Below are positions 3,246 to 55,187 of a stretch of 64,000 bases of DNA, in pieces. Numbering within the stretch: the first letter of the stretch is position 1; every line of letters starts with the position of its first letter. Both the position numbers and the translations under genes were made by a program. The stretch is from Lactifluus volemus (taxonomy: Eukaryota > Basidiomycota > Agaricomycetes > Russulales > Russulaceae): contig WTXI01000002.1 in assembly GCA_022376515.1 (NCBI GenBank), forward strand, positions 1,240,001 through 1,304,000. Reading direction: 5' to 3'. The notes beneath the pieces are model-generated. The model did no database searches. It was not told the origin of the DNA and saw only the letters and a program-made list of their open reading frames with translations.

Positions 3246-5146
3246 ATGCAATCTCCTTTTGACGCTCCTTTTCGCCACCGTTTTGTTATCCCCACTAATC
3301 ACGACGTTGGCGCGTCGCGTGTCAAAGGTCCGTAATCCTCCACCTTTCAATCAATTTGCTTCCGCACTCCCGAAAATATCAAACGCGCCCATTAAATCTT
3401 CGCCCTGAACCCGCAGGCGAAGAACCTTGCACTTATCTATGTGGTAACTCTCTCGGCCTTCTTCCAAAAGCTTCAGAAGCGCTAGTTCAGGAGGAATTTC
3501 GCGTATGGGGTTCCAGGAAAGCGCCCTAACCCGCCCCAATTCATTTCTCCAAGCATGTAGTTGACCGCCCTGTTTTCATCTTCGCAGGGCTGTTCTCGGA
3601 CATCACGATCATCCCCATGGAAGGGAGTGGATGAATATCACTGATCATGTCAACCCTCTCCTCGCTGAGCTTTTAGGTAATTCCCAAGTTTTCCTCGCGG
3701 TGCTGCTCTTTGCTACCCCTTCTGCATTGACTTGAACAAAGGCGCCCGCGAGGCTGAAGTCGCCTGCATGGGAACTCTGACGGCCAACTTGCATCTTATG
3801 ATGAATACATTTTATAAGCCTACCCCCGACCGGTACAAATTACTCTGCGAGGGCAAGGCTTTCCCATCCGATCAGGTGGTTCATTCCTCTTGATATATTT
3901 TTTTACGTTGTTCTCCCATGTTTTCTAACGCCGCACTTGTCAAAGTACGCCTTTGCATCCCAGGTAAAACTACATGGGTTCGATCCTAAAGATGCCATCA
4001 TTGAGATGTTCCCCCGCCAAGGGGAATTCTTCCTTCGAGAAGAGGATATTTTGGAAGTAATAGAAAAACAGGGCTCTTCTATTACCCTTGCCATTTTCAG
4101 CGGAGTGCAGTATTACACGGGACAGTGGTTCCCAATGCCATCGATCACAAAGGCAGCTAAAGCTCAGGTGAGTTTTTTTTTTTTTTTCGTTCAGGCGCGG
4201 TCTTACCCGGGCCCGGGTGCTATCAATGTCCGGGAAAAGGACGTTCTATTTCCTTGTATTGCCTTTACGTACCAGTCTTGCTGATCGGTATCAAACGCAG
4301 GGATGTATTTGTGGATGGGACCTCGCCCACGCAATCGGAAATGTTCCTCTGTCCCTTCACGATTGGGACGTTGACTGGGCAGTATGGTGCAGCTACAAAT
4401 ATTTAAATTCAGGTCCTGGGGGCATCGCCGGCCTGTACGTCCACGAGAGATGGAACCAAGAAATACCAAGGTGCCGCAGCTTCACGCCCTTTCTGACTCA
4501 TGTCACCGATCCCCCTGTCATCCCACACATTGTTGTTCTGCTGGCCGTCTGACGCACCGTCCGGGTTCGTATACTGACGTGACTCGATTAAAGATACGCG
4601 GGTTGGTGGGGTCATGACCCCTCGACACGTTTTCTCATGCCACCAATTTTCTCCCCTATTCAAGGTGCACAAGGATTGCAGATGTCAAACCCGTCTGTCC
4701 TCGGTGTCGCCTCTCTTCTGGGCTCCCTCCGGCTGTTCAAAGAAGCTGGGATGGTGGAACGTTTACGGGTGCGCTCCGTCGAACTTACGGCACATCTTGA
4801 GAGACTCCTGGTTCGGTCGGCTTACTTTGTACCCCCGCACGATGCCGCCGTGAGAATGTACCTGTGCACCAGTTCGACGGACCCCGCTCAACACCGTCGT
4901 CCCGCTTTTACTATTATCACACCTCCGCTGCGAATTCTCGCGGCTCGCAGCTCTCCCTTTCATTCTTCTCGTCGGATACAGAGCTCATGCCGAAGGTTCA
5001 CGAGGGGCTTCACTCTTACGGCGTAATTGGGGATGCCAGGCGCCCCGATGTATCAGACTGGCTCCCATAGCCTTGTACAACACCATCCAGGATTGCGAGA
5101 ACGCAGCGACGTATTAGAGGAAGTTCTCACAGCGCTTGACAATTAA
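3246..5146 (+). CDS. BNA5: Kynureninase (3' part with apparent frameshifts)
   Basis: PLP enzyme that cleaves 3-hydroxykynurenine to 3-hydroxyanthranilate and alanine in de novo NAD synthesis. Exon 1 (3246-3327) ends within VGASRVKG and joins exon 2 at 3417, which carries the family motif [13 protein letters not shown]. Later exons contain [34 protein letters not shown] and the PLP-lysine region [13 protein letters not shown]. The last exon (from about 4600) carries [19 protein letters not shown] and, after frame changes, [23 protein letters not shown] and [15 protein letters not shown]. Three single-base losses are needed to follow the protein: near 4925-4929, 5051 and 5098. Without them the frame stops early, so it is either damaged or misread here. 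It is divergent from BNA4 and tail-to-tail with BNA7 (47 bases between stop codons). Confidence 0.92.
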
Positions 5147-5193
5147 AGTCATGACACGGCAGCATCACACAGCGCATGAAATATCGAAATGTA

Positions 5194-6112
5194 TCATTTT
5201 TTCCAGGTACTTGATATGAAGTCTCCTACAATCCGAATAAAAATTTCTGACAGAAAAATTCCATTGTGTTCGTCCTCCAGATCTTCCCAGTTTTTTAACA
5301 CATGACCCGCCTCCGGAAGGCCGTCTTCTTGAAGACACCGCAAGTGTTCGTACATGGTCTGGCTTTGACGCATGTCTACTAAGGTGTCCCCTTTTGAATG
5401 AATAATAATCCATGAAATGTGGTTTGCCCCCTCGCGGAGAGGCATCCTTGTGGCCAAATATTGGTCGTAAGTTGGCAAATTGCCGAAAGTATCGACGATG
5501 AACCAATCGCGATATGTTGGAAAGGATTTCAATAAGGTATCGATGTCATAGATACCTTCCGAAAGGACGACCCCACGAACTGCCTGTAAAAGTGACTCAG
5601 AAGGCATCAGGGACGGTTCCGACGAGTCGAGCAGTATGCAGGTTAGCATGTGTGCACTACAGCTGTGACCCATGAGGAATATTTGATTTGGATCATATGG
5701 CAGGAATTGGCATTCTTGGGGCCCGGACCAGGAAAGTACGAAATTGAGCAGCTGGAGGATGTCCTGCGCATGGGTGGGGTGCCGCAACTTGTTTTCCAGA
5801 TTGGTCAACCGATAGTTCGGGACGATAATCGAACATGACGTGTGCGCTGCAAGGCTGCGCGCGAGGGCCCTATGATCCATCTTGTCTTCACTGGATTTGT
5901 CATCATACACCGCATAAGTTATATACGGTGCGCAGTCGCAGACGCAGCCCTAATAAGACTTACGAACGCCAAGCACCGCCATGCACAAAGCAAATAAGTG
6001 GTGCCCCAACCGCTGCTTGGGGTATCACTTGACTTGGAACAAACAAGTCAAATCTGTGGAGTGGGTGCAGGTTGGGAGAAGACACGTAGGGTATATCCAA
6101 AAATTCGTTCAT
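5194..6112 (-). CDS. BNA7: Kynurenine formamidase (arylformamidase)
   Basis: Alpha/beta hydrolase that removes formate from N-formylkynurenine, the step before kynurenine 3-monooxygenase. Exon 1 (6112-5964) starts MNEFLDIPYVSSPNLHPLHR and ends with the oxyanion-hole motif FVHGGAWRS. A 73-base intron (5963-5891, gtaagt to ccag) joins it to EDKMDHRALARSLAAHTS. The nucleophile elbow is GHSCSAHM (usual GHSxGAH in this family, here Ser-Ala in place of Gly-Ala). VVLSEGIYDIDTLL and TYRDWFIVDTFG are typical of fungal BNA7. An Asp in HSKGDTLVD and His in DEHNG could complete the triad. The spliced protein is about 281 residues, normal for the family, with no frameshift seen. Its 3' end nearly meets that of kynureninase, and its 5' end faces PMP3 across 168 bases. 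Confidence 0.9.
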
Positions 6113-6990: not shown

Positions 6991-9715
6991 TCAGTCTCCG
7001 CTGCTGTCTTCGCTCCCTGATGATCGCGCATCCTCGCTGTCGTCATCCTCGCTATCTTGTTCATTAAATTGGTGAATCATGCGTGCGCCAACAATCCGTG
7101 TCTTCTGAATGTTCTCTAACAGGGCGCTAATCTTAACGCCCTCGCCTTTGGCTTCTGGTTGGGCGTACCAACGACGAATGTGCTCTTCTTCCACAATATC
7201 ATTTTGATAAAGTGCCGCAAGTATTTGGCCAAACAAGTGAACCCGGGTGGAGGATGCGCATGGTACTGTCGAGGCACACGACAATCAGGGCGTCATTTTG
7301 GAGGCAAGGTGTGGATTTACCTGCAAGATTGAAACAGTTTCCACGCCGTCCACGCCGCCAATCAGGTTGATCAACTCCCCCCATCGATCCACCCATTTCT
7401 TGATCTCTACTCGCTGCGGCACGGCGCCTTCAACGAGAGGAATCATCTCCACGATGCCGGCAACGACAGCTTCACGTACGCGGCGCAGAGGCACATTGCT
7501 CACCATACGCAGCGTCTTGAGCTCAATGCTCGCATCCCCGAGTGAGTGGCCCTCCGAGAACGCCCGATCGAGCGATAGGCGGACTTCCGTCTTGAACTCT
7601 TGCTCACCAGCTGTGCTAGCTCCGACAGGAAGGGACGTGGCAGAGGACGCTACAGAGGCGCTTTGCGACGCATATTCGTCGTCGTCCGATTCGGGCGACA
7701 TTTCCGCGTCTGAGGTGACGGAACCAGGGTCGGATGGTACGAGATCGGCAAAGTCATCACCTAGACACCGTTATGTAGATGCCGTACGACCTTAGCACAC
7801 AGACGGGAACATACCTAATCGCATCAGTCGCATGTTATTGAAAGACTCCAGCTTGTCATCTCCATCTTCGTCTCCCTCCTGGGCGACTCTCCGGGGCCAC
7901 ACAAAAGCGTCAGAATCGGGACCCAAGCTCTGCGAGAGGAAAGACTGGTCTGCACATGCAGTGGGGCGCTCAGCATCGAGTGTGGTATCATGAAAGGCGC
8001 GGTGAGAAATGCGCACCTTGCTCTGCCTCCTCGAATTCCGAGTCGGCATCACTTTCGTCGCTCTCACCTTCAACGAGTTCCCCGGCCATCGGAACAGGCT
8101 TTTCTTTCGCCTCGATACCCTTTCAAACGGCCTGAGGACTGTGCCTTGTCCGAGCTTGACACCATCCGCCACGAGTGAGCCCCGTGCTATTCGGCTACCC
8201 TCGCCAATTCGCACCCCAGTGCCGACAATGCAGCTCTCGAGGGTGCAATTCGGACCTATCTCTACGTCGTCGAAGATGTATGCGTTGCGCAAGACGGACC
8301 CAGCTCCGATGGAGCATCGAACCCCGATAGTCGACGCGATGACCTGTGCCTCGTCGTGCACCTGAGTCGAGGGTCCTATGAGCGTATTGTTGCCGATCTT
8401 GCATGTTCTGCAAGCCTTATCAAGTTGTGTCATTTGTGGCGTATTCGGCCACTGACCGAGAGAGGATGACAGAATTGTCTTTGGGGATGTACTTGTTGCC
8501 GCGTAGATGGTCGTAAGCATGTTCACCTGGGTGGTTGTCATCGGGTACCAGTGGGTATGTCCAGCGGGATAGGATATCCTTGCTAAATGTGCGTGTGAAT
8601 GGCAACTCGGGTCCACCACAACTGGGGTGAATGCGCACCTGATGGCGTCATAACTACGAGTGTCCTGTACCCGTGCGGCGTAACCTTCCTTTACAACATA
8701 ACAATATATGTTCTTCATGAGTAGATCCGAGGTGAGAATGCCGTGCACAAAGTCCCGTCTGATGTCGCCATAATCAAAGTTGTCTTGGAACAGTGACGGT
8801 ACCTGCCCAACTGATTACTCAATCACGTAAACACCAGAACGACGTCAGCGTGCCTCGAGAGCGCAGACATCAATTGAACAATCGATAAGGTCATTGCGAA
8901 TCTCAATGTTCGGGTGGGTCTCGAGGACGTCTCGGGGAACTTTGACAACTCTTTTGAGAGGATAACCCATGACTGGTTCATAGTGCAGACATTCTGCGGT
9001 ATCGTGATCCAACACAAACACCGCAGAGTCACCTTTGGACCTCGATGCATTATTCGTCAGTTCTACAATCTTAGCTACATTTAAGGCAGTCACTCACCTC
9101 GTCCGATGAGCTGTCCCACTCTCCTTCACGACCATAGTCATAATGGCGTCTTTGTTAGTTTTTCTCCGCTCCTTGTGTTTGCGGACAACCTCATCTATGC
9201 TGATGTTGCTAACCAAGTCACCATAGACGAGGACGAAGTCGCTAGTAATGATGCCGTGTGTGTATATATCGCGCATCGCGTCCCCTGGGGAAAACGTCTC
9301 CTTGGCTATCAGAACGGGCACGATCTTTAAACCGGTCGATGGATGCGACCATTTAGAATTCCTGTTAATGAAGTATTGGTGCGCGAGAAGGAGAATGAAC
9401 TAATATTGACTTACTGAATCGCCGCTTTTACTTGTTCAGCATGCGAGCGGCATATTACGAAAACCTCCTGTATGCCAGCGAGTGCAAGGCCCTCTAGCGT
9501 CCAGTCCAAGAGAGGGGCATTACATATAGGAAGTAGACACTGTCCAAACCATTCAGATGATACAGTGCATGGTATGGGAAGGCAAGGACCTTAGGTCGGT
9601 CAGCAGTCAAAGGTTTAAAACGCTTGTTAAAACTATCGGCAAGGATGACGGCTTGAAGCACTTCAGCCTCTTCATCTTCTGGATGTCCCCTACTCGTTGA
9701 GGGCTTTGATGGCAT
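6991..9715 (-). CDS. GCD6: Translation initiation factor eIF2B subunit epsilon
   Basis: Catalytic subunit of the guanine nucleotide exchange factor for eIF2, central to translation start and stress control. The N-terminal nucleotidyltransferase-like domain carries LQAVILADSFNKRFKPLTAD and, after an intron, CLLPICNAPLLDWTLEGLAL. The middle has DILSRWTYPLVPDDNHPG and a left-handed beta-helix (NNTLIGPSTQVHDEAQVI and IRIGEGSRIA-type hexapeptides near 8180-8400). The C-terminal W2 (HEAT-like) domain includes LFGQILAALYQNDIVEEE and an acidic tail DSEDDDSEDARSSGSED. One single-base loss is needed near 8113 to pass from PFERVS to EAKEKPVPMAGELVEG. Many short introns occur. The start MPSKPSTSRGHPEDEEAEVL fits the family. 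Confidence 0.92.
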
Positions 9716-12610: not shown

Positions 12611-14820
12611 CTATACAGGGTCCTCGGTGCCGGATGCTCTAGCAAACTGATGCCGAGCCGGGGCACGGAGTCCTCTCGCCTTTAATCGCCTCCGCTTGGC
12701 CTCTGAAAAACCTGTGAGCAACGAGCCAGAACTGCGGTGAACCAAGATTGCCATAACTTACCCTGAATATACTCTTTATCTTCCTTTTCATCAAACCGAA
12801 CGCCCTGGGATGGTACATCCTCGTCCATGACGGTCTCATGTTTCTCCTCGTCTTCTTCCTTTGCTTGTTTCGCACGCTTCGTGACCTTGAATTTTGCCAC
12901 AAAAAAGCCGTCCATGTTGTGCACGTGAGGATAGAATCGTCGCGTCAAATTGACGCTGGTATGGAACGACTTGCCCCGATAACTGGTAAAACCCGGACGC
13001 CCGAATTCAAGGCCAGTATCCACCAAACGTACGTTGGGGCGTTTTCGGAGTGCATAGTCGACAACAGCTTCGTTCTCGTCGACAGTAACAGCACAAGTTG
13101 AATAGACCAAGTATCCGCCCGCTTTCGATCCAGGACTGACACTATCAATGGCACATAGAATGAGTTGCTTCTGCAGATGCGACAGCAACGTGAAATCCCT
13201 TTCTGTCTGATTGCCATGACGCCATCATGGAAGAGATAAGATTAGACGCCATTAGAAATTGGCCCCTTCAATAAAACACGTCACTACCCGTGACGCACCT
13301 TGTTAATTTTGACGCTTGCATCCTTACTGATGACGCCCGTCCCGCTGCATGGCGCGTCGAGTAACACACGATCAAACCGCCCATGACCTTGGGAAACTCA
13401 CGGCCGTCGTAAGAACATACCACAACGTTCTTGCACCCTAACCGGTGTACATTGGCCGTCAGGCTCTTGGTGCGAGCTTTGTTGGCATCATTGGCAAAAA
13501 TAATCCCAGTATTTTGCATGAGCGCAGCCATATGTGTCGTCTTTCCCCCAGGCGATGACGCCATGTCGAGAACGCGTTCGTGGGGCTGTGGCGAGAGTGC
13601 AATAACGGGTAGAAATGATGACGCTGCTTGCAACATGTAGTGCCCAGAAAGGTATTCTGGAGTCGCACCTACGAAATGGATCATTAAGCAAAAAAAAAAA
13701 TGAACGCGTAGTTGTGGGTGGCTCACCAATTGGCACACTGCTCTCAAACACCTGAAGGCCGACATTGGTCCACTTGCCTATTGGCTCTAAATTGACTCCA
13801 CGATTGATCAGTGCTTGCGCCAGATCTCGACGTCTGGTGCGAAGTGTGTTCGTCCTGATAGTAACCGGGCGAGGAACCTCATTGGCATCGAAGAATTCAA
13901 TAGCCTACTCGGGTCGTCAGCAAGTATATATCATGTCCAGAAGGCTGAAATGCGTACCTCAGAGATGGGAAAAAGCTGGAATAACTTCACTGCGAGGAAG
14001 TCGTTATACCCATAGTAGCTAGCGATGTCCAACACAAGCTGCTCGACAAATTCAGATCGAGCCCTGTTATATATCAATCATATCATCACCACAACTGCGT
14101 CCGAAACAGACCAGAACACGAACCTGCCTGTGTTGACTTGAGATATTTTCCACCTTTTCAAAATCCTGACGCATTCGCGCATCCGCTTTTGAACGACATG
14201 CACCTCTGGGCCGCCAGCCTTTTTTTCTTCCTCGCGCTCCTCAGCCGTCGGCAACACAAATCCTCCGCCCCAGGCTCATCCACCTCCTCTTCGTCCTCAT
14301 CCATGTCCTCGATGTCCGCAAACTCATCTGCATTGGCCTGGGCCGCCATTTGAAGTTCTTCTTCATCTAGCTGAGCCTCGCGGGCTGCCTGAGCGTCGAG
14401 CGCACGAGACCGCGCCGCGAAATTCGAGGCAGTGACGGGTGCATCCTCGTCCGAGTCCTCATTTTCAACATCTATTTCAGAGTCTGAGGTAGCACCAGAG
14501 TCCGTGGAAAGGTCGCTATCCTGAAACAACGATCTGGAGCGCATACGGCTTGTGAGAGGGGAGGTCATTCTACTTGTGCGGGGGATCAACGCACCTCGTC
14601 TCAATCGGGAGGGTGTCGCCTTGGACGTCCTCCCATCCTCCACTGCTTTCGTCCTCTGAACTTGCTGGTTTGGGGACAGGTTTTGCCGAATCCTTGACCT
14701 TCTTTGCGGGCCGCTTCTGCTCGATACCCGCGCCTGCCTTGCGCTTTCTTGATAAGGTTGCACCGTAAGCTCTGAAAGAGGTTCGGGGTTGCTTTGTTTG
14801 TTCTTGGCGCGTCTTCCCAT
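12611..14820 (-). CDS. NOP2: 25S rRNA (cytosine-C5)-methyltransferase NOP2
   Basis: Essential nucleolar enzyme that methylates a cytosine of 25S rRNA and is needed for large-subunit assembly. The protein begins [18 protein letters not shown], then a long acidic and basic region ([17 protein letters not shown]). The SAM-binding region is [17 protein letters not shown] and [20 protein letters not shown]. The two catalytic cysteines are in DAPCSGTGV (motif IV) and [12 protein letters not shown] (motif VI), with GFFVAKFKV near the end and a basic C-terminus [18 protein letters not shown] in a last exon. One single-base loss near 13376 separates [11 protein letters not shown] from [12 protein letters not shown]; there is no room for an intron. 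NOP2 is essential in yeast, so an artefact is likelier than a pseudogene. It is divergent from ARG4. Confidence 0.93.
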
Positions 14821-29118: not shown

Positions 29119-30000
29119 ATGTCAGCAAGCGCGAAGCGCGACTTTGAGCCGGGCCACCTACTCGCACTGCATGGCATCGTTGTATATGCAAATTTCTCGT
29201 ACCGGGCAGCTTTTCACCATACTTCCTTTCGCCATAGCTTAATAGGAACAACACGCCCCTCGTGGAAGACCTTACTAGCGCCATCTAAACCTAGAGCCGC
29301 ATCTTGGTCAGCGCGTCCTCAAAGCAATCCCGTCGCAACTAGAGGGTGCCATCTGCCATAGTAAAATTGACAGGCACAGGTATCGCCGGCGCCGGTTTGG
29401 GACTGTCGCTCTATACGAACCTTCAAAAACTGAATTGCGAGTGTATGTCCCAATCATTCCACACCCTAACAACGAATACCTCTTTTTGTTGAGAGTACTG
29501 GCACAGCCCCTCCGCAGCCGTTCGTCCTCACCGCGTTCAAGATGGACATCGCCGGGACCACCTGACCTGACGGGTCTCCCACCCCCTCCAGAGTCCAGTG
29601 TCAATATCTACGAGCTCACATTTGGGTCCATCTGTGGCGTTTGCGCAGGGGTTTTTGTCAAGAAGGGAGCAAAGGCTCTCGCATTCTTTTCGGCGGGGTA
29701 TTTGTATTGTTGCAGGTGAGCCATTGCCGATGCACATGCCACGGAATGACGTTTTCTAAGGACCCTATGCTCACGCACATCGCCAAATAGTATCTTGGCT
29801 CCACGTCAATAATTCGAATAGACTGGTCAAGGGCTGCTGCTCGCTTCGAGGGGTTGTTCTATACTATGGAAGCGAATGGGACCAGACGCCCACCAACTGT
29901 CTACTCACTGTGCAGATGGCTGGTCGACTTTTTGACTGCTGATTTTCAACCGAGGGCCTCTTTCATAGCGGGATTTGCTCTAGGCCTGAGAATTGGTTAG
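29119..30000 (+). CDS. FUN14-domain protein (apparent frameshifts)
   Basis: Mitochondrial outer-membrane family related to the mitophagy receptor FUNDC1. The domain is clear: VKLTGTGIAGAGLGLSLYT, then VNIYELTFGSICGVCAGVFV, KKGAKALAFF and, after an intron ending at 29790, YLGSTSIIRIDWSRAAARFE, closing with SFIAGFALGLRIG. Two single-base losses are needed: near 29345 (between the Arg/Ser-rich leader VATRG and PSAIVKLTG) and near 29690 (AFF to GGVFVLLQ). The leader (FRHSLIGTTRPSWKTLLAPS) looks like a mitochondrial signal, but the true start is uncertain; 29119 is the first in-frame Met. Typical FUN14 proteins of fungi have two or three helices and this length. Confidence 0.8.
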
Positions 30001-30267: not shown

Positions 30268-32050
30268 CTAAACCTTTCCTTTCCATTTACGCCATAGTAC
30301 AATGCTTGCACAATAAGATAGAAGGGATGCGAGCGCACACACTGTGAATGTGAGACTCCAGCATGTTGTACCAGTGCAAACTCCACCACCAACACTATTG
30401 TGCGCCGAGACAAATGCGTATAAGTATGAAAAGAGAGGCGTTCCAAAAAATGGGGCGTAGGTTAAAATACCAAAGTTGCGCCCACAATCCCTGTTACCCC
30501 AGATAGAGGATACAATGCTAGGTCTGAGTCAGAGAAAGACTGTGAGCCATATACGGAGAATATAAACAAAGACTATAACATACAGAATGGTGAATGTGAG
30601 ACCATAAGCAGCACCAGTGGCGACACTAAGTGTCCAAAGGTCATCTGGAGTTTGGACAGCTAGTTGTTGATAGACAAATGTGCCTGCAAGGAGAAGGGGC
30701 ACCCAAGACAGAAACGAAACTCTACTGATATGGTATCTTGACGGGCTGTTGCCAGGAATGTTGGAAGTGACAGGAGATATAAAGTCCACAAGAGGGCCAG
30801 AAAGGAGGCGTGAGAGTGTGTTGGAAATGGAAATAAGGCGTACTTGGGTTGCAGTTGCGAGTTCTGTAGAGGAAGAAAGGACTCTAGGAGAGGCAGACTT
30901 TGGCGACAGTGAAAGGACAATAGTCCCTATATTGGAGATAATCATTTCGCACTGCAGACAATTAGTTCGTGACCCGTATGAGACAAAATAGAAAACTCAC
31001 AGAACCAAGTGTGATTAGGGTAAAAAGAGCCAGGAGCCAGAAGTGAGGGTCTCTAAAAAGTTGCAGGATGGTGCCACCTTCATCAAGCGTGGCTTGTACA
31101 TTGGACCGAGAGACCTCATTTATTAGAAGGGGCTGGCTTTCGTCAACCGAACACTCTTCATCAAAACTAGTAGCCAGAGAATCGGGAGCACCCTCTAATA
31201 CTGACGCGACTTGGTGCTGAGATGTGGGGAAATACAAGTTGAAGGCACCGACGAGGTGGATAACGCCGGAAGCCAGGGCCAAGAACGACAAGAAACGGGC
31301 GACGTTTAACCCTGTGTATGGGCTGGTGAAGTACCGGGATGCCAGGAGAGAGAGGAATAAGGGAGACAAGCCAAAGAGCGCCATACTTGTCCCTGATGCG
31401 GCACCCAGATGCTTGGGGAAAGCCCGAGAGGCAGCAAAGAGAGATGAAAAGTAGCTTTTGCATACAGAGGATGAGGATGACATGGTGTATATATTGACAA
31501 TGTGAAGACATACGAGGAGGCGGCCCCCAATCCGGTCAGGAAGAAGCACGCCGCGAGCACTCTGAACGACGTCTTGGATGGTGCTACAATGTCATCCGGT
31601 GTCTTGCGATCTCGAAAGCGAAGATACCAAAACCGGTAGAAAAGAGGAAGGAGGCAATCAAGGAACATGCCCAAGGACCATAATGATCGATAACCTTGCC
31701 AATCAAAGCGGCGAACGGATACTGGCCCATCATGCCACTGTGACTATTCAGAAAGAAAGCGCGCAAGAGTAGCTTAAAATCTCACAGGAGTACGATTGTT
31801 GTTAATTGCGGTTGCGTGAGCTTAAGGTTAAGAGCAAGTGAGGGAGCGAGGAGGGGAAAAGTGAAGACTCCGCCAGCGAAGAGTCTGCAGTGAAAAATCA
31901 GCTACGATGTTCGGTGAGAAAGAGACCGCAAGTAGAGAGAGACATACGCATTTGCGGCGATTGATAAACAGGTGAAGAGTAATCTGATATTGTCAAGAGT
32001 GGCATCGGATGGGCCACAAGTCTGACGCCTCCGAGTCCCGGACTCTGGAG
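30268..32050 (-). CDS. MFS transporter, MCH1/nodulin-like type
   Basis: Twelve-helix carrier. Early helices read IRLLFTCLSIAANA, LFAGGVFTFPLLAPSLALNL (intron between) and GMMGQYPFAALIGKVIDHYG, then ACSLIASFLFSTGFGIFAFE. The middle contains RVLAACFFLTGLGAASSYVF, FPKHLGAASGTSMALFGLSP and a large acidic loop with SVDESQPLLINE. The second half has LFRDPHFWLLALFTLITLGS, TLSRLLSGPLVDFISPVTS and a C-terminal helix ending LWRKWKGKV. One single-base loss near 31605 separates FAFEIA from KTPDDIVAPSKTSF. Pattern and loop resemble fungal MCH1, a monocarboxylate-permease homologue that does not carry monocarboxylates in yeast; the substrate is unknown. The 5' end (near 32050) is approximate because no good ATG is visible in frame. 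Confidence 0.8.
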
Positions 32051-32144: not shown

Positions 32145-33218
32145 ATGCGAACTTATTCTAGCTCTCGCTCTTCTCGCGTACCCACACGTTCATCATCTCC
32201 CCAACCCTCCAAAAAGCGTCCCCTCTCCGAACGTCTATCATTCCACAACACACCACAACCTCTCAAACGCGCTCGCACCGTCGCCTCTACTTCCACTTCT
32301 CTCTCTAAACACAACCACCAAAGCACAAATACAAGAGCAAGGAGGATCGCCACCACCAAGAGTCTCACTCACTCCATTTCACCATCGATACTTCCATCCT
32401 GCGCACATGTCCTCTCTGCGACCTCACGTACACCAAGGGTGCCCCCGAGGATGAGGCCTTGCATAATTCTCATTGTGCGAGAGTCCAGAAGGGTATGCAG
32501 TGGCGCCGCGATGAAGAAAGAGCAGCCGCAGAGGCCCAGGTCTGTGAGGTGCCACTGGTGTGAAGCTCAAGGATGGCAAGTCGGGCAGAATATTATCTAT
32601 CAACGCCGATGCTGGCGGAAAGATAGGCTCAAAGGTATGATTCAATGAACCGCGTTTAAAGATGGGCATCTGATAAATACCGGGCGATCGCCTCATAAAG
32701 TGGCCACGCTTCTACAGACTATAAGCTTGCATCTTTCCTCGCCTCCAATCACTCGTGATGTACTCCACGTATCCAAGGCTTATCTTTTCCTCCTTCCCTC
32801 TGAGAGATCACTTTCCTGCGAAACGATAGCGGGTTGTGTGGTTGCCAGCCACATCTCCACCGCTATGGCCATCGCCTCTCCGGCAGAGGTCCGAGGGTCC
32901 CTCGCAGACACAGTTTCAAAAGCCAAACCCATACCACCTCCCACAGCGCGCCTGGTCTCTGTTGACCCTAGTTCTAGCCTATTTTGTAAACCAGAGCCAC
33001 TGTCAACACCGATGGGCATCCCGCGTCTGTTTGTGCCCTCTGCGTACCAACGGCGTGGCATTGCTATCCGCCTGTTGGATGCTGCAGCCACAACTTTTGT
33101 ACATGGTTGTCCTTTGAATCCCCGTCGTGGTGAAGTCGCGTTTACTCAGCCTACTGCCTCGGGTAAGGCACTAATGGAGAAGTGGGGGGGTGGCGGTGTT
33201 CGAATATATCAAGAGTAG
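32145..33218 (+). CDS. ECO1: Sister-chromatid cohesion acetyltransferase ECO1
   Basis: N-acetyltransferase that acetylates the cohesin subunit SMC3 in S phase. The N-terminus is basic and Ser-rich with a PCNA-type motif not obvious. The zinc finger is CPLCDLTYTKGAPEDEALHN with a following SHCARVQKGMQWR. After a frame change comes ATGVKLKDGKSGRILSINAD; an intron (gtatga to aaag) leads to ATLLQTISLHLSSPPIT and KAYLFLLPS. The catalytic part is GIPRLFVPSAYQRRGIAIRL, LLDAAATTFVHGCPLNPRRG and EVAFTQPTASGKALMEKWG. Two single-base losses are required, near 32330 and at 32550. Essential in yeast, so an artefact is more likely than loss. Confidence 0.9.
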
Positions 33219-36500: not shown

Positions 36501-39500
36501 CGGGACATTCGATGCGAACGGGAAGTCCTTTCGTGAGCGCAGGTTCCGATTCATCTATGAACTTGTTGTCGAGGCGAATATAAAGTTTGTGATCTTGCTG
36601 CCGAACGCGAAAAGTCGCCACGCCGGGACGCATCTGCCATGCAGGTTTCAAGATAGCCGATAGATCGAGATACCTTGTCTTCGGAGTGCGAAGGCTTTCA
36701 TCAACCTTAAGAAAATCAGACCGCCCAACCATCTCATTGATGGTTCGGAAACCAAGCTTCGCCATGTATCCGCGAAGCTCTTCGGCAAGGTAGTAAAAGA
36801 AGTTGATGACATGCTCCGGCTGACCGTAAAACTTTGCGCGCAATTGTGGATCCTGGGTAGCAATGCCAACTGGGCAGGTGTTGACTAGATTCGCACGGTT
36901 GTCAGAGCAGTCTAGAACCAGTGAGATAGGGCGGATCGGACTTACGGTGACACTTCCTCATCATAATGCATCCCATAGCAATCAACGGCGCAGTCGCAAA
37001 TCCCCATTCTTCAGCTCCAAGAAGACAGCGATCGCAATATCGCGACCAGTTCGTATTTGCCCGTCAGTTTGCACGACCACACGGCCACGAAGGTCATTCA
37101 AAACGAGTGTCTGATGGGTTTCAGCTAGACCAAGTTCCCAAGGAAGCCCTGCGTTTTTAATGCCAGTCCAACGTGACGCGCCCGTTCCTCCATCGTGTCC
37201 TGAAATAAGGATGTGGTCTGCCTTTGCCTTTGCAACACCGCTGGCGACGATGCCCACGCCAACTTCGGACACCAGCTTCACAGAAACACGACCGCGTGGA
37301 TTGGAGCATTTCAGATCGTAGATGAGCTGTTTAAGGTCCTCGATGGAGTAGATGTCATGGTGAGGCGGAGGGGAGATGAGGCCAACGCCGGCGGTAGAAT
37401 GACGTGTGCGGGCGATAGAGCCAGATACTTTATGACCGGGAAGTTCGCCACCTTCTCCGGGTTTCGCGCCTTGGGCCATTTTTATCTGCAGTTCATCCGC
37501 ATCCGCGAGAAAGTTCGAGGTGACTCCAAAGCGTCCAGAAGCCACCTGTTTGATAGCAGAGCGCATGGTGTCGCCGTTATTCAATATGAGGGATCGCTCA
37601 GCATCCTCACCCCCTTCACCGGTATTCGACTTGCCACCAAGTCGATTCATGGCAATTGCGAGAGTCGAATGGGCTTCCATTGAGATTGAGCCGTAAGACA
37701 TGGCTCCTGTGACGAAACGACGAACGATCTCATTCCAAGGCTCCACTTGGTCAATAGGAATGGGCGTTGCGTTTTCATAGCAGAAGTCGAGCAAGCCTCG
37801 GAGGTGAATGCTCTTTGCTTGATTGTCCGCGTTACGTGCATAAGCGTCGTACGCCTTCTGATTTTTCTCGTGTACGGCATCTTGAAGATTGGCGATGCCC
37901 TCCGGGTCGTTGATGTGTGGCTCCCCGCCGTCGCGCCAGTGGTACTCGCCAGACTCTGGCATCCCGGGAGGGATAAAGGTCTCACGAGATGGCCAGCCAC
38001 GCTCGTGGAGTTCGAACGCATCCATAGCAAGGAGATCAAAGGTCGCTCCCTGGACACGACTAACCGTGCCGATGAAGCACCGATCAATAACTTCGCTGTG
38101 CAACCCCAGAGCTTCGAAGATTTGGGCCCCCTTGTACGACTGGAGGGTGCTGATACCCATCTTCGACATGACCTTGAGAATGCCGTTGTCCAGCGACGAT
38201 CGGTACTGCTCCATAAGCTCGTTCAGAGTCATGTCATTCTTCACCCTAATCATGTGAAAGGTCAGGAACCTGGTGAATTAAGCATTGATTCGGAAAACAA
38301 TCTCACAAATCTTCGCGAGAAACCTTGTGTATAACTTCCATCATAAGCCATGGACAAATAGCATCCGCACCGTATCCGACGAGGACACAGATGTGATGTA
38401 CCTCCCTGGCTTCTGCCGTGTCAACCATAAGGGCAACCTTTGCGCGCTTCTTTTGAAGAACGAGGTGATGATGTACCCCTCCACAAGCAATGAGAGCGGA
38501 GAGGGGAACACGTGTAGGGGAGGTCGCTCGATCAGAAAGGATGATGGCTTTCATTCCATCTTCGATAGCTTGTGTAGCCTCGTTGCACACCCGGTCGAGC
38601 GCCTTCTTATATCCGGGAAGACCTTCATCTTTTGGGAAAGTGATGTCGATAGTACGAGAAGGCCAGGCAGAATATGCGGATTTGAGGCTTTTCATGGCGT
38701 TCATCTCTTCAATCGAGAGTACTGGAGAGGGTAGAAAGATACGATGACACTGTTCTGGCTTCATTTCTAGGAGATTTCCCTCAGGCCCGACATAGGTTTC
38801 CAGGGACATCACGATACTCTCTCGGATTGGATCAATAGGAGGGTTTGTGACCTGTGCAAATAATTGACGGAAATAGTCATAAATGATGCGAGGTTGAGTG
38901 GCCATGGCTGCAAGAGGTGCATCGTTTCCCATGGAGCCGAGCGCTTCCTTTCCAGTGGCGATCATGGGAAGCATAAGAAGGTTCAGCTGTTCGACAGTAA
39001 AGCCGAAAGCTACAAGCCGGGGATCGGCGCTCAGCGGTGCATCGTCAACAATCGCATCAACCGACTGGGTGCGCATGACACGTTTGACGATCATTGGAAC
39101 GCGAAGCACATTAGTCTCAATCCAGGAGGCGAAGTTCTGTTTCCGCGCAGTAGTCATCTTCAGCTCTTTGTCATCGACAATGCGGCCTTCGACAGTGTCG
39201 ACCAAAAGCATCCTTCCCGGTTTCAGGCGACCCTTCGAGACTACCTTTTCTGGGGGTACGAACAAAACTCCAACTTCGGAGGCGCAGATCATGATATCTT
39301 CGTTCGTGACGACAAATCGACATGGGCGCAGACCATTACGGTCAAGGTTGGCCCCGCAATAACGACCGTCCGAGAAGGCGAACAGTGCTGGCCCATCCCA
39401 GGGCTCTTGAAGGCAAGCTGCCCATGTATAAAACGCTCGCTTCTCCGGCTCCATGCTGTCGTTGCCTTGCCATGCTTCGGGGACAAGCATCATTACGGCC

Positions 39501-45001: not shown

Positions 45002-46500
45002 ATGAAGATGAACTACTTCTCTTCGAGCGTCCTTCATATCACCTTCTCGGCAGTTCATTTAACAATCTCTGCTCTCTTGCCTCACATCTCCGTCCTCCTT
45101 TCTTTACTCGAGCACATTTCCTCCATTCTCTTCGAGAGGCTCTCCGATTTCTCTGCGGTACCCCCTCGCGCGTCCTTTCCAACAGAAAAATGCGCTATTC
45201 TCATCATAGGAGCTCAAGAAGGTGCATCTTTTTTACTCCACCGATTGAATTAAATTTCGACAGGTGCCCCTCGAGTTAGGTGTGGGAAGAAACGCGGCCC
45301 TTCGCTTCTCTGAGCTTGGCTATACCGTCTTTGCTCTATGTCCTAATCGGTATGAAGACTCTGGCCACTCTCCATCACCTGGCAGGTCCGCGGATGTGGC
45401 TTCGGTAAGATCGATGATAACCTTTTCTTGGCACCGACTTATCTCCCCCCTCCCCCCTCCCCTAAAAAAATTCAACCATATTTCAAAAGCTTCTATACAC
45501 TTGGCACAACAGGAAGGAGAGGTCACGATCGATCCCGTGGGGTCTCGTAGCGCCGATGCAACTGAATTTGTGGTCTCGGCCTCAACGCGAAGCCGTACAC
45601 GAGACAGTCCGCGCGCACTGTAGCGCTTATGGCCTTCACCTTGTAGCATTGGTCATTTCCCATTGCCCCAATCGGCAGCAAGACGTAAGCCGTCGTTTGT
45701 GGACACGATTGATGCGGCATACCGTGCAGATTCTCCTCATGAGAGCCACAGTGAGGAAACCGCGTGGAGAAATAGCGTGCTTGAGGAAGTTACAGAACCC
45801 GTGCTCATGGCATGCAACTACAAGAGTTTGCTCGCAGAGGCCTCAGGGCGAGTGATCATCCTATCCAACTTCACTGATGGTCAGTATTGTGGATTCATTC
45901 TACTAGCCAATGCTTTTTTATGCTCTATGCAGAAACAGGCTCTCCTCTGGCATCCATGTCCTTGGCGAGTCGGAATGCTGCTGCTGAAACCTTGGCGGAA
46001 CTCCTAGAGTCCCAAGGGATCCGTGTCTCTTCGATACACTTCGGGCCGTTGGCACAGTGCTCAGAAGGACTTTCGTCAGAAAGACAGAGCATCAATAGGT
46101 AAGTAATGTACTTGTCACCCCAGAATCGAGACGTATCCCCACGACAGGCGTTTCTGGCAACCCTTCGGTACATGTGTCGACCTCCAGCGCTCTGATATAC
46201 TCTGACGACCTGCCAAAAAAGATTGGCAGGAATCATTTGACACTTTCAGACAAACGGTATCAGGCAACTTCGGGTGCCGGACAACCTCTTGTTAACGTCC
46301 TGCAACGCGTTGTACAATCGCGGTATGTGTTCCACTCAGGCGATCTAAACACCGACCATTATTTTGTCTCGTAGGCACCCAAAGTTCGTCTACACGTCGG
46401 CGCGTATCCGGTTTTGCACCGTGCATTAAGGTCAACCCCCCTCGGCTCTAGAGTTATCGTGAAGAGTTTCATGCCTTGGGTAAAGTCGCGGAAAAGGTAG
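45002..46500 (+). CDS. DUF1776 family, short-chain-dehydrogenase-like protein
   Basis: Rossmann-fold protein of a fungal family. The N-terminus has hydrophobic segments (NYFSSSVLHITFSAVHLTIS, LLPHISVLLSLLEHISSIL), then the nucleotide-binding strand and loop AILIIGAQEG|VGRNAALRF across an intron, and SELGYTVFALCPNR. Further parts: LVAPMQLNLWSRPQREAVHE, VLEEVTEPVLMACNYKSLL, EASGRVIILSNFTD, MSLASRNAAAETLAELLESQ and a C-terminal SRVIVKSFMPWVKSRKR. The usual catalytic Tyr-x-x-x-Lys of dehydrogenases is not visible where SLASRNAAAE stands. Two single-base losses seem needed, near 45662 and 46407; without the second, the frame stops at 46429. Confidence 0.75.
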
Positions 46501-47657: not shown

Positions 47658-48961
47658 ATGAGCCAACATGTCAGATGGTCAGAAGGCCAGGCTCAAGACG
47701 GCCCAGGAACGACCAACCCAGCGTATGCCGCTGTTGCACACACATTAACGCGTGGCGCCGCGTTGTATTTCTCGAGACCGTGCGGCTCTTCCGACCTTCC
47801 AAGAGTAAGCATTCCTACTAGGTAGCATGCGGGATCCCTCTCTGAGACACAATTTCTAAGCAAAGTCAGTGGTTGGCAATCTCTCAAGGGTGTTGCTGCC
47901 AATGACGGGACGTCCTTAAGCCCTGGTTTCATCACACGGCTTGTTAAGACCCAGGGGGTGTGTAAAGACAGTATACGTCAATCATATCCGTTCTTCTCAT
48001 CGTCCTCCTCAAGATACTAGTTATTTCAAAACACTTCGTTCCACCTCTCCTCGTGAATGCGGCACTAGGCACTGTTCTATGGACGACCTACTCGGAAAGC
48101 TCCTCAATTCTGACCAACAATTTGAAAGTGCATCCGATCACGATCGCCGCAATTTCCGGTGCAGTTGCCGGTGGTGCTCAAGCCATTGTGGCTGCCCCCG
48201 CAGAAAACGTCCGCTTGGTCGTCGAGGGTGGTACAGTCGGGGGAGGTTGGTCTCACGCGTGGAAGGAAGTCGTCCGAGAAACAGCAACAAATCAGTCATT
48301 AAATCAGTCCATGCGGAATGATGACCTTCGCGAAATAAGGCAGGTCCGAAGCTGGATGGCGGAGGTTCGTGAGATGGCAGGACGCGGATGGAACGGGTGG
48401 GGCTGGGGATTGGCAAAAGACGTTTGTGGTGAGCTTGGCACTATCTCGCGACGCGATAGATCGTAAGTTGATACCGGCCATCCCGTAGGCTTCTCGGTAT
48501 TTTTTGCGATCTTTGAGGTCACTCGCCATGTCGCTGTGGAACTGAAGGTCTTCTCGCTGGGTCTCGTACAACCATTCAACGCGGCGGGACGGCCGACTGC
48601 CGTAGAGCGACACTTACCGCGCGTAGTTCACGGCGTTACTTTGGTAGCAGGAGGGGTCACAGCGGGACTGGCGTACGAGTTCGTTTGTCGCCCCTGGGAT
48701 GTTGCTCGAAAGCTAGAGCGGCTCGAACGGGTCAAGTCTGCCACAACACATAGACCGAGGCGTTATTTTTTCAATATTTTAGCACGCAAGGTACATCAAG
48801 ATGGATTTGTCTCCCTTTTTCGGAATCCTGCCCATGAAGAGAGGACGGCCAGCAGTGTGGGGAGGCAACGTTTGCTCGCGGTTGCACGAACAGTCGGACG
48901 TGTAGGTCCTTGGGGGGTAGGATTCCTGGTTTGGGAGGCATTTGGACCCGGAATATCATAA
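47658..48961 (+). CDS. Mitochondrial-carrier-like membrane protein
   Basis: Divergent member of the mitochondrial carrier fold. The start is either 47658 (MSQHVRWSEGQAQDG) or 47668 in another frame. Then NPAYAAVAHTLTRGAALYFS, a frame loss near 47779, VRLFRPSK, LKGVAANDGTSLSPGFITRL, KHFVPPLLVNAALGTVLW, ITIAAISGAVAGGAQAIVAA with PAENVRLVVEG (carrier-type P-x-E/D motif region), FSVFFAIFEVTRHVAVELK, VHGVTLVAGGVTAGLAYEFV and RPWDVARKLER (second P-x-D motif). Only degenerate carrier repeats are visible, so the substrate is unknown. Intron gtgtgt to actag separates LVKTQG from the following ISKHF. Confidence 0.72.
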
Positions 48962-49041
48962 ATGATAATATATGGATAGGATAACCAGTTATTTTACTTC
49001 TTATCACAGAACATCATCACAACCACCAAGCAGACGAGGTC

Positions 49042-50488
49042 ATGCTGAAATGCGCTCATAAAGGTTGTGGCAAGGAGTTTGACCTTGCAAACGATGCCAC
49101 AGAGGCTTGCATCTACCACCCTGGCGCTCCGGTAAGTATCCCACATCAACTCATCTTCACTTGACCACCTTAGATGATAGATTTTTCATGAAGGCCTCAA
49201 ATCATGGTCCTGCTGCAACACGGTCAATAAGCCTGTTTTGGACTTTGACGAGTTTATGGCCATCGCCGTAAGATCCACACACTCCTGTTTGTATATCCAT
49301 AACCATCCGCGTAGGGATGTACGCGCGGTGTGCACTCGGCAGATGCGCCAAAAGTAGAGCCCTTGAGAACGTCCTCGACGCCAAACAAGTCTCTTACCGT
49401 GACCGAGTCGGCAGATGGGAAGGAGGTATACACAACGTCTACTGCGCGCAGCCAACCGACGCAGCGTCCCGCGGTCGCTCCCGTCGCATCGCCAGCACCG
49501 ACACAGCAAATCGAAGAAGAGGAAGACTTGCAGGCGTTCGTTCCTCAAGGTGCCCCCTGCAAGCGAGCGGGGTGTAAAGTAAATTTCGCGAGCAACGAGG
49601 AGAACCGGGTTGGCGATGGACCGGGAACGAAGTGTGTCTATCATCCTGGAGCAGTACGGGAGACGTTTTCTTTATACATGCATTATCGTATTAATGTGCA
49701 TCCCCACAGCCTATCTTTCACGAAGGAAGCAAGGTTACTTTCGTTTCTTCTTTTTATTTCCAACAAGCAAGGTCGCTGATGGCGAAATGCCTGACCCACA
49801 GGGTTACCTCTGTTGTAAACGTCGCGTACTCGAATTTGAAGAGTTTCTCAAAATAGAAGGGTGCACAGAGGGACTGCATCTTTTTGTCCCAAAGTCGAAG
49901 GGAGACGTACGTGAGACGTGAGACGACGCATACGGTATCGACTCTGAGCTGATATCGTGCCACCCACTTTGACAAACAGGCAGAGCAAGCTGTGAACTGC
50001 CGAATCGATCACTACCAGACGCCGAGCACCGTACATGTCACGGTATTTGCCAAGCAAACGGATAGGGAGAGAAGTACCATTAAAATCGAGGAAAACGAGG
50101 TAAAACGGAGTGCACACGACAACATGCTGGGCCAAAACATCTAACCCACTTGAGTGCAGATATATTTTGACCTTTATCTACCGGGACCAAAACGATTCAC
50201 ACGGTCCGTGCAGCTCTTCGGTCCTGTAGACTCTTCGGCGTCGTCCTTTACGATATTTGGTACCAAGGTAGAGTTCTTCAAATCACCTGGCCGTTGCCTT
50301 CCCTCAAAAGCTTATAGGTCGAGGTCAAATTGAAGAAGCTTGATGGAAGGAGCTGGACATTACTGGAAAAGACTGACCGGGACCTGGGACCTGTAAGTTT
50401 CACATTCGGAGTCACTGGACGTACGGGCACGGTCGGCGCAAAGGAGCTTGTTCTCGACGATCAAAACAGTCACAATCACGCACGTTAG
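49042..50488 (+). CDS. CHORD-CS domain co-chaperone (RAR1/CHORDC1-like)
   Basis: Hsp90 co-chaperone. CHORD 1: MLKCAHKGCGKEFDLANDAT, ACIYHPGAP, then IFHEGLKSWSCCNTVNKPVL and DEFMAIAGCTRGVHSADAPK. A Pro-Thr-rich linker follows. CHORD 2: CKRAGCKVNFASNEENRV, CVYHPGA, PIFHEGSKGYLCCKRRVLEF, FLKIEGCTEGLHLFVPK. The C-terminal CS domain (p23-like) includes STVHVTVFAKQTDRERSTIK, IYFDLYLPGPKRFTRSVQLF and KVEVKLKKLDGRSWTLLEK. Conserved Cys/His in both CHORDs are in place. Several introns of about 50-130 bases; a small exon (PIFHEGSK) lies at 49710-49733. No frameshift seen. Plant RAR1 lacks the CS domain, animal CHORDC1 and this protein have it. Confidence 0.9.
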
Positions 50489-50583
50489 AACTACCCCTAT
50501 AGACATTTGATGGGGGGGTCCCATCAGAGAAATGTGGAGCCAAGGAATAAAAGATGCACGTATGTATCGTCTAAAGTGGTTCT

Positions 50584-53500
50584 CTACAATATTCTAGGGA
50601 GCTCTATGTCACTATATACCTGAATGACATCGTCTTTCCTGAGGTCACCGAACGACTCTAGACCAACACCACATTCGATTCCTTTGGACGCTTCGGTGAT
50701 ATCATTTTTCAAATGCCTCAAGGTGTCTAATCGACCTAACGAAAGATTCTCAGCGGTCAGGCGAGTCTAGGCGTAGATGCCCCCTACCTTCATGGATAAC
50801 CTTTCCGTTTCGGAGAATTTGTACTTTTTTGCTTTTCTCAACAACACCTTTCGTGACGCGGCAACCAGCGATTCTCTTACTGCGTCCTCCGGAGAGCTTT
50901 ATGTCGAATATTTGAAGAACGGATGCCTCCCCAGAGATGCGTTTCTCGTAGACGGGTGGAAGCAAGTTGACAACGCGCTGCTTGACGTCCTCTATGACTT
51001 GATAAATGATTTGAGATGAGAATATGGGGATGTTGTGTGCGCCTGCAGCACGGTGGCGCTTCGAGGGACTGGGACCGAGAAGGCGACGATCATGCCTGGA
51101 AATTCAACTCGATCAGAAAGATGATTAAAACAGGGGTTGAACGAGCTTTACTCTCAGACGTCTTTGCGAGGAGAATATCCGACTCTGTGATTTCCCCGAC
51201 GCCGGTGTAAACGATCTTGACCCGCGCGTTCTCATATACAATGCATCCAATGCGCTGGTCAACGCTTCGACGCTCCCACTTACGTCTCCTTTAATGATGA
51301 TTCTGAGCTCCGGTGGCTTTTCGCTCGTGGGAACAATAACTTGGTCTCGGTTATCTTCCTCGCTCTCTCTCTGTTCTCGGTCGAGCCGGCGCTGGGTGTT
51401 GATTGCGTCAATGTCCGTCGTCATGACCTGCTCCTCGGCTTTGCGTTGTCGATTGGCTGCTGCTTTCTTGACATCCTGCTCTGAGCCTTCAAGGACCTCA
51501 TCACCAGCACCAGGGAGCTCCTTCCAGCCGGACACGGTCACTGCCATTCCAGGGGCCGCAATTTGACTGGCGAGCCCGTCGAGTTGGTCATGACGCGGAC
51601 CTTAGCATGGGTTGTTCCAGCGACTAAGTGGGCACCGGATTTGAGTGAGCCACGGAGTAAAAGGACAGTGGCAACGGGCCTGCGCTCAAGATCTGAGGGC
51701 AATTGGAGGTGCGAAAGACGAATACTCACCCAAGTCCTTTTTGAACCTTGGACTCGATGATTCGACCGCACGCCTGGCCGTCATGTTCTGCACGTAGGTC
51801 CTGCATCTCCGCTACAGCAGTTATAGTCTCCACAAGTTGGTCAAGGCCATGACCTGTTAAACCAGAAATTTCCACTGAAGGTACATCCCCACCCATTGCC
51901 TCAAGTTGGACTCCTTCGGCCATGAGGGAATTATGAACTTTGCTCTACACAGAGCGTCAAAGAAGGGACAGAGATAGGGACCAGGACGCACGATGTTGAT
52001 TCCAGGCTTATCTATCTTGTTGATGGCTACTATAAGCTGCACATCTGGATCCTTCTGGACGAGCTGAATGACCTCCTTGGTCTGGGGACGGACGCCATCG
52101 TCTGCAGCGACAACTAGAACGACGATGTCTGTCACATCGGCCCCACGAGCACGCATCGCAGAGAATGCCGCGTGTCCAGGGGTATCTAAGAACGTGATCT
52201 TTTGAAGGCCGCCCCCAACTGTGGTTGGTACAGGAACTGAAAAGGCGCCGATGTGCTGAGTGATGCCCCCTGCCTCTCCCTTAGCCACCGAAGCCGACCG
52301 CAGAGTGTCCAACAGCGTTGTTTTGCCATGATCAACGTGACCCATGATAGTTACAATCGGTGGCCTGAGGGACAATGTTGATGTGTCCACGAGGGGTGCC
52401 CTACATAAAGTGATATTAATCAGTGGACTGTGACCTTCACCGTCCGACGGGGGGCCTTACGGGGGATACAAATCAAATGCCGCTTCATCATTGACGACTG
52501 GGTTACAGTTGAATTCTTCGGCCAAGAGGGCAGCATACTCCGAGGTCAGGACTAGCAATGGACGTCAAAGCCACATCCAGAAAGATAAGGCAGACTAGAT
52601 ACCATGATCATAGGAAGCTTCTTCCGCCATCCCAGCCTCCCTCATCTTCCGCTGGAGTCTACCTGATTAACATGGCCATGAATATTAGGAACATTTCGTA
52701 TGAAACGGGGCCCACCAAGTGCAACACCGATAATCCTGGCAAGATTTCCCACAGAGACAAAACTAGGTATGAAAACTTGGCGTTTGGTCTCGTTCAGAGT
52801 TTTCAGTTTACCCTTGGACTTTGCTGTTTGCGTGTGGGACTTCACGGGTATGATATGATCGCGAATTCGAGGTAGTTCGTCGCCACTGTAGGCCCTCCTA
52901 AGAGACCCACGCTCCTTATGTGCAACCTTTGAGCGTCTCGATTTGTCTCTTGACTTGTCATGAGTGTGGTCAAAGTAGGGTACTTTAATTTCAAAGTTCT
53001 CCTCTTCAGCAAAAGTTTCTTCCGAAATTGTTCGGGCATCATCGGCGTGGCGAGCTGGTTCATAGGCGCTTCGTCTCGTGCGCTCTGCGGTTTTCGGAGA
53101 AGGAAAGGCTCGGGAAGTCGAGTTGGAAAGACGCGGAGTAGGGTCACGCAAGAAAGAACGAAGGGTTGCTTCGGATCCTGCACGGGCCGTAGGGAACGGG
53201 ATATGCTTCTTCCATTTTGTGTGACCTGATGAAGACGTGGGCAAAAACTCAGGACGAGGTCTGTGCTTGCCCTCCGAAACTCGAAACGAATCGCCAGTCG
53301 GATTCCGAGCACGTCTTTCTCTGAATGCCGTCCCCGGCATTCGTGAGGGCGATGAAGTGCGAGAGTCAGATAAGCTTGGGGTGAAACCCGCGGGGCGTTT
53401 CCATTTTTCGAGGTTGGGGGATGACCTATTGGTTGAAGGATTCTCGGGGTTGCGCGTGGGTGGCGGCTATGCACAACGTTAGCATTTGAATCATATGGGA

Positions 53501-53621
53501 GATTGAATGTATAGATGGGCGAGAAGCAGGAACGTACGGCGAGTTTGGTGGCCACAGATATTGTTCTGATATTTAGAGGTCTCCTAAGTTGCGGGATGAC
53601 ATGACGCGAACGATTATGCAT
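50584..53621 (-). CDS. IFM1: Mitochondrial translation initiation factor IF-2
   Basis: GTPase that brings fMet-tRNA to the mitochondrial ribosome. The start at 53621 gives a presequence [20 protein letters not shown] (Arg-rich, no acidic residues). The N-domain has [20 protein letters not shown] and [18 protein letters not shown]. The G domain shows [17 protein letters not shown] (G1), [15 protein letters not shown] (G3) and INKIDKPG (G4), then [18 protein letters not shown]. Later: [60 protein letters not shown] and, last exon, [20 protein letters not shown]. Two single-base losses are needed, near 51234 (LY to [11 protein letters not shown]) and 51563 (SPV to [10 protein letters not shown]). 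Confidence 0.92.
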
Positions 53622-53713
53622 AAATATGTTAGTGAAATGTATGCAGACAGCAGAAAGGTAGCATGTGTTGTTGCTGGCTAGAACACTTGACACACGGTAA
53701 ATCCGGGCCGCTT

Positions 53714-55187
53714 ATGCTCAGACTCAAGCCGCTGCACACGGTCCCCATCTCTCTCTTGAGAGGACCGTTAAATGTCAAGTTTCGAGACACTTTGCATTAT
53801 CCAGATTTCCTGAGAAAAGTGCACCTTCCGGTGGGAGAACAAGGCCACGTACTCCAGCACCACCCATCCGTCCAAGTCCCAGAGAACATGACCCTGACTC
53901 CCAGCTGCGTTCGGCTGAGGCCCAGGACGAAAGCTCCTTTGACACTAACAAATCACCTCTATTGGAAGAATCCAGCGGTCTCTTGCCTCAAATCCGGAGG
54001 ATGGCCTCAAGACGCTCCTCCAGAACGACCTCCTGATTGTGACCCGGTCAGTTCTTCCTGACCATTTGTACGGCGCAGAATCATAAACGATTCGCTCCTA
54101 TACAGACAGCTCGAGATGCTGAATATATTCATAGGCTTTGAGCAAACGAATAAATATGTGATCTGTTGGTATCACATTTCTCAATTCTTCTCTTTTTGCT
54201 TGGTGGCAACTGATAAGACTAGCAAACGAGGTTGGCGAAACACTAGGATTTATTGCTGAAGAACCTCGTGGTATATTGGCATCTTTCTCTCGTCAAATTC
54301 TTAGGACACATAGACCATTCCGAGCCGTGATCATGGATCGTGAAGGAACGCCAGTCCTTTGGGTATGGGGTGGATTATTCGGTTGTTGCAACAGAGCTCA
54401 CCTCGGGGCTTCAGATACGAAGGCCTTTCGCATGGATAAACTCGCGCATGTACGTTCAAAAACTCAAGGACTGGAACGAGTACTCTACCACGGGTGAACT
54501 TGTTCTGGATACCTTTGCTGAGGCCCAGCAACGCTGGCACTTGTGGCGACGGCGTTACGACCTCTTCCTCAGGTGGGGAGTTTATAAGGCTAGGTTCCGC
54601 ATCTCCCGTACTGAAGCCGTCGATAGAGCCACACCAAAACTCATACTCTCAAAGGCTGGTGAAGATCAACCAGAGCCAGAGCCGGATCATTTTGCTCAGT
54701 TTGCTAAAATCGACGAAGGCTTCTTCGCATGGCATTTCACCCTCCGCGGGTCCCGTGGCGAAGAGCTGGCGAGTATAAGTCGCGCCTTTCGTGGCTTTGG
54801 ACGCGAGATTTTCACTGATACGGGCGAGTCATGTTTCCGTGAGGTGAAAGGAAGAGGTCCACTATCTAACTCCAGAACATAGGACAATATTCGGTGAGTT
54901 ACACCCGTTCGCCACCAGCTACAGAAGACAACGCACCGAGGGAACCATACGTGATGCGGGAGTTGTCACTTGACGAACGAGCAGTGAGACTTTCTCTCAT
55001 TTCGTTCCGTATCTGTGGTTTACCCTACCTGCAGCTCGTGTTAGCGATGGCGGTGAACGTCGACTTCGATTATTTCTCCCGGCATTCTGAAGGCGGGTAC
55101 GTGTCTCCGTGATTTATCACAATTTTGGCGTCAGTCTTACCTGTGATCAGACCTGGAATGGGGTTCTGGCACTTCACATCTGATTGA
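53714..55187 (+). CDS. AIM25: Mitochondrial phospholipid scramblase family protein
   Basis: Fungal scramblase-like protein. The presequence MLRLKPLHTVPISLLRGP is followed, in a shifted frame, by VSRHFALSRFPEKSAPSGGR and a long disordered Pro-Arg region. The scramblase domain has EDGLKTLLQNDLLIVTR|QLE, MLNIFIGFEQTNKYV, ETLGFIAEEPRG, RTHRPFRAVIMDREGTPVL, IRRPFAWINSRMYVQKLKD, WRRRYDLFLR and the C-terminal FDYFSRHSEGG|PGMGFWHFTSD across an intron. Two single-base losses are likely, one near 53770 and one near 53990. The usual Cys-rich and calcium-binding parts of animal scramblases are not obvious. Named by similarity to yeast AIM25. Confidence 0.85.

Follow-up and report, generated by a model that had tools for sequence, protein, structure and literature searches.

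The 64,000-base window of Lactifluus volemus analysed here (C112:1240001-1304000, in an assembly of 62.4 Mb and 628 contigs) carries conserved protein-coding genes whose reading frames are repeatedly interrupted, as if single bases were missing. That these breaks are an artefact of the assembly, neither gene decay nor recoding, is well supported. We favour, with some reserve, the reading that the bases were dropped at heterozygous sites where two haplotypes had collapsed into one consensus. This reading is preferred over a uniform deletion error because loci represented twice in the assembly show no visible breaks, copies of an interspersed repeat show no excess of deletions, the sites have no link to homopolymers, and the lost bases lean towards the third codon position. 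The separation between collapse and plain consensus error is statistical and modest.

Frame breaks in the window genes

A preliminary description of the window had reported about 21 breaks in 13 genes, each with one base missing. The missing base was borne out at the 7 of 21 sites examined by alignment (three in BNA5, one each in NOP2 and GLT1, and two in IFM1), all seven having a downstream frame that begins one base early, and by eye at 8 of 21 sites; the other six positions (10343, 10410, 29345, 46407, 46700 and 47779) lie outside both tallies. The sites in the two tallies are listed below by window position and strand, and "phase test" marks those used to assess the codon position of the lost base.

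4915..4935 (+): BNA5 (kynureninase), break 1, one base short; residues 1-96 and then 91-144 of the relative P0123 match in successive frames; phase test
5040..5060 (+): BNA5, break 2, one base short; P0123 residues 91-144 and then 137-160 match in successive frames; phase test
5090..5118 (+): BNA5, break 3, one base short; the C-termini of P0124 and P0138 align in frame 3 again; phase test
8103..8123 (-): GCD6 (eIF2B epsilon), break at about 8113, by eye; LbH_EIF2B profile on the upstream side only
13370..13385 (-): NOP2, break at about 13376, one base short; RsmB/F profile 2-77, then 78-105 in a different frame
29680..29700 (+): FUN14, second break, at about 29690, by eye; PF04930 matches the upstream piece only
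31595..31615 (-): MFS transporter, break at about 31605, by eye
32320..32340 (+): ECO1, first break; ESCO zinc finger (Pfam) downstream in the new frame, upstream frame by eye
32540..32560 (+): ECO1, second break, by eye
37008..37028 (-): GLT1 (glutamate synthase), break at about 37020, one base short; relatives continue through; phase test
45650..45675 (+): DUF1776 gene, break at about 45662, by eye
51224..51244 (-): IFM1, second break, at about 51234, one base short; IF-2 profile 4-49, then 53-79, with 8 bases between them and 9 expected
51553..51573 (-): IFM1, first break, at about 51563, one base short; EF-G_D2 profile 12-58, then 60-83 (second match weak, E 0.12), with 2 bases between them and 3 expected
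53760..53780 (+): AIM25 (scramblase), first break, at about 53770, by eye
53980..54000 (+): AIM25, second break, at about 53990, by eye

Across the three BNA5 sites (4927, 5051 and 5098), the relative P0123 was matched in frames 3, 2 and 1 consecutively. PDB Nop2 chains aligned with the joined NOP2 peptide across its break, and the 431-residue window open reading frame (ORF) of GLT1 aligned with PDB chains as far as the break. Among the best 120 database hits across the GLT1 break, 76 possessed the strict motif and 17 a variant motif; the remainder ended within the motif (6), were without such a motif (16) or diverged nearby (5). Two of these 120 hits (P0291 and P0297) leave the motif just after GRD, as if frame-shifted, close to the position of the window break, and P0254, P0262 and P0284 diverge near the GLT1 break or slightly later. 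The closest database relatives reached at most 94% identity for BNA5 and at most 93% for GLT1, in a protein database clustered at 90% where a conspecific sequence of either protein may hide inside a cluster.

The profile search returned no match for the downstream FUN14 piece, and no Pfam match was obtained for the pieces on both sides of the break in the MFS transporter or of position 45662 in the DUF1776 gene. Introns, where their sequence was read, were about 50-60 bases long. In CDC45, absent from the preliminary list of broken genes, the three tested profile pieces were joined by intron-sized gaps.

The breaks had also been described as lying mostly outside homopolymers, and this was confirmed: at none of the 19 window sites considered (10343 and 10410 left out) did a homopolymer within 20 bases exceed a length of 4. 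Such a lack is ordinary for the region, where it applies to 88-92% of positions. The -1 slippery heptamer X XXY YYZ was likewise found within 20 bases of none of the 19 sites. The sites were clumped along the window: using all 21 positions of the preliminary description, 8 of the 20 gaps were 350 bases or shorter (P = 0.00015 for uniform placement over 64 kb, and 0.023 over 32 kb). A tendency of bases to drop out where the flanking bases form a transition pair was also considered; no excess was seen by eye and the idea was dropped.

Breaks on other contigs

The exon coordinates of HSP70 and chaperonin genes indicated junctions lacking one base on C1, C445 and C596 and at further places on C112. 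Reading the sequence on those contigs and on C113 confirmed the missing base in CCT3, CCT4, CCT6, CCT7, two HSP70 genes and one SSE-type HSP70 gene. The RNA polymerase I gene RPA2, on C556, was also broken and one base short, and PDB relatives aligned across the breaks of the CCT, HSP70, NOP2 and RPA2 genes. As genes for chaperonins, HSP70 and RNA polymerase I are interrupted in the same one-base-short way, the breaks are unrelated to gene function.

Among the nine short-gap junctions in four gene families, seven were one base short and two had one extra base. A G run in a chaperonin fragment on C212 (30170-30310; L054) contained a surplus base, the sole break of opposite sign confirmed by sequence. 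The preliminary claim that no extra base needs removal holds for the window sites checked; the C212 fragment is an exception outside the window. The sequence of the C1 site at about 1699332 was read, but the protein was unplaceable and the site was kept out of the phase test. The AAA family, in which 19 of 573 candidates were scored, yielded no junctions to judge and was excluded from the count. An HSP70 break on C133, inferred from coordinates, was rejected, its one-base difference from the C618 counterpart lying in an intron.

Loci represented twice and once

For gene loci that the assembly contains twice, no short-gap break appeared in 4,984 residues (16 paired copies, four families), whereas single loci contained nine candidate breaks in 10,432 residues (35 loci, four families). 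The contrast had P values of 0.026-0.065 (0.030 with nine junctions and 0.065 with seven), for a sorting into paired and single loci that was judged by the analyst from hit scores and coordinates and in which pairs could be duplications instead of haplotypes.

Loci were shared by two contigs for C1 (about 1.95 Mb) and C95, C193 and C556, C133 and C618, and probably C318 and C596 (L035/L036, L044/L045, L055/L056). The doubly represented loci are probably separate haplotypes. Over three doubled-locus pairs (9,405 aligned bases), 129 substitutions and 13 gap runs were counted, 4 of these being single-base. The RPB2 gene, found with equal scores on C1 and C95, differed by 34 substitutions and no gaps over 4,092 aligned bases, and the ORF of its final long exon was intact. 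In one RPB2 exon, all seven differences between the copies were at synonymous third positions. The 4.9 kb adjoining RPB2 on the same two contigs showed 73 substitutions and 12 gap runs, three of them single-base.

For the broken window segments, a second copy was found for none of the four searched (1.9 to 4.6 kb), bar one 78-base match at 90%, in a search that left out NOP2 and the 10-kb sites and in which the 12-kb query 44000-56000 was not scored.

Repeat copies as a control

At least 40 interspersed copies of a repeat about 690 bases long are present, with 94-97% identity (L004:3000-3688; L024-L034 near 1501-2188). Twelve copies (8.2 kb) contained 80 private substitutions and 11 private one-base insertions, compared to a single private one-base deletion that itself lies within a longer gap. 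Many of the private one-base expansions are in short A or T runs.

Codon position of the lost base

Loss of a third-position base was compatible with 11 of the 13 tested breaks (10 of 12, plus RPA2), against 51-62% expected for random deletions in comparable genes (P = 0.013-0.072). The phase evidence does no more than lean towards the third position and is suggestive only.

Other features

The C-terminal exon of MSS51 (57822-58826, - strand) is an ORF without a break. A JGI metagenome protein (P0001) was 100% identical to it over 93% of length, so that this species, or one very close to it, is represented by a metagenome contig. The top named relatives of MSS51 belong to Lactifluus, Lactarius and Russula, which places the origin of the window in a Russulaceae mushroom. 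The JGI protein was ruled out as a conspecific control across a break, as the MSS51 exon is itself unbroken.

A tandem array with a 129-base unit was observed at L020:1609-3383, its translation resembling WD40 repeats by eye. Arrays resembling it (L011, L017, L021; about 72-79% identity) are located less than 10 kb from the start of three other contigs.

Origin of the breaks

A mushroom spends most of its life as a dikaryon. Under the collapse reading, the sequenced mushroom would be a heterozygous dikaryon whose haplotypes were joined in a single contig, in the window as in much of the rest of the assembly. The consensus step would then have omitted the base at some sites differing between haplotypes. 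With coding differences mostly at synonymous third positions, such omissions would appear as scattered, clumped single missing bases of nearly one sign. The losses would show no homopolymer preference and would fall in essential and dispensable genes alike. We infer three things from the assembly: the status of the doubled loci as haplotypes, heterozygosity at the broken sites, and the dropping of bases by the consensus step.

Plain deletion-biased consensus error of long reads, unrelated to heterozygosity and incompletely polished, is a serious rival and a real, if lesser, possibility. It is close to the cause named in the preliminary description, deletion-biased reads without full polishing, of which the artefact is well supported while the specific cause fits less well with the doubled loci, the repeats, the homopolymers and the codon phase. 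Single-base deletions are a usual residue in assemblies from long reads, and in the bacterial long-read assembly Pss508 of the Kastor paper the indel (insertion or deletion) errors were mostly false deletions (PMC12007338). That the breaks occur on several contigs, and that one error of opposite sign exists in the G run on C212, would also suit plain error. However, the doubled loci, presumably with fewer reads each, are without breaks, and the 12 repeat copies hold their one private deletion against 11 insertions. The sites also show no homopolymer excess, whereas that paper associates such deletions with homopolymers 2 to 8 long (PMC12007338).

Several points weigh against collapse at heterozygous sites. 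The broken sites are only putatively heterozygous. Systematic errors common to all repeat copies would go unseen, and a few gaps were common to 2-5 copies. The SNF2 single loci, which were included in the count, also show no short-gap breaks, so that the break rate is uneven. Of the nine candidate junctions, those at C1:1699332 and C618:144727 are weak, and a third is the surplus base verified on C212; the CCT3 (C113) and RPA2 (C556) breaks escaped this count. As to codon phase, losses in phases 1 and 2 were compatible with 12 of 13 breaks each, near chance (P = 0.12-0.29), the nulls being drawn from relatives at 77-94% identity and the chaperonin and HSP70 references being distant PDB chains. 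With the reference used, CCT4 is compatible with a loss in phase 1 only; for the SSE-type gene, phase 1 and phase 2 are both compatible, at poor similarity.

Real decay, whether as pseudogenes or as truly frameshifted alleles in the specimen, is very unlikely. The breaks are present in the sequence as given, and in an assembly a real one-base-deletion allele looks the same as an error. However, NOP2 and genes for CCT chaperonins, HSP70 and RNA polymerase I are affected, and the chaperonins and polymerase subunit among the broken genes are essential in yeast. The four searched window segments are without a second copy, and the BNA5 and GLT1 relatives are intact. Pseudogene decay would be expected to combine insertions, deletions and nonsense changes in dispensable genes, whereas a survey of insertions and deletions gave breaks in housekeeping genes that share a single size and, but for a verified exception, a single sign.

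It is barely credible that many nuclear genes undergo programmed -1 ribosomal frameshifting or base-inserting RNA editing. The uniform sign at the window sites checked would suit it, but the X XXY YYZ heptamer is absent around the 19 sites, the RPB2 long exon and the other doubled loci need no such correction, and the breaks fall at arbitrary positions in housekeeping genes that are read without recoding in relatives. We give hardly any credence to the stronger version, in which the nuclear DNA would truly lack the bases and many reading frames of a Russulaceae mushroom would be restored at the RNA or ribosome level with no known slippery signal.

Implications and comparison with known systems

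The breaks are almost certainly an ordinary artefact that the living genome does not share. When gene prediction is applied to this assembly, conserved genes will come out split or truncated, and some may be wrongly recorded as pseudogenes or as lost. The difference between single and double loci suggests a simple check for other assemblies of dikaryotic or heterozygous fungi: before decay or recoding is called, frame breaks should be compared between collapsed regions and regions with haplotigs.

In the bacterial long-read assemblies of the Kastor paper, the indel errors were mostly gene-breaking false deletions, as appears to be the case here; they were linked to homopolymers of 2 to 8, whereas the window sites are without such an excess (PMC12007338). 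A report on Trypanosoma brucei offers a second likeness (PMC8445201). The cause was proven by reads in that organism, whereas for Lactifluus volemus, another organism, it is drawn from the assembly. In both, indel errors cut reading frames short, there in a collapsed diploid PacBio assembly whose apparent frameshifts were fixed by accurate reads and allele phasing (PMC8445201).

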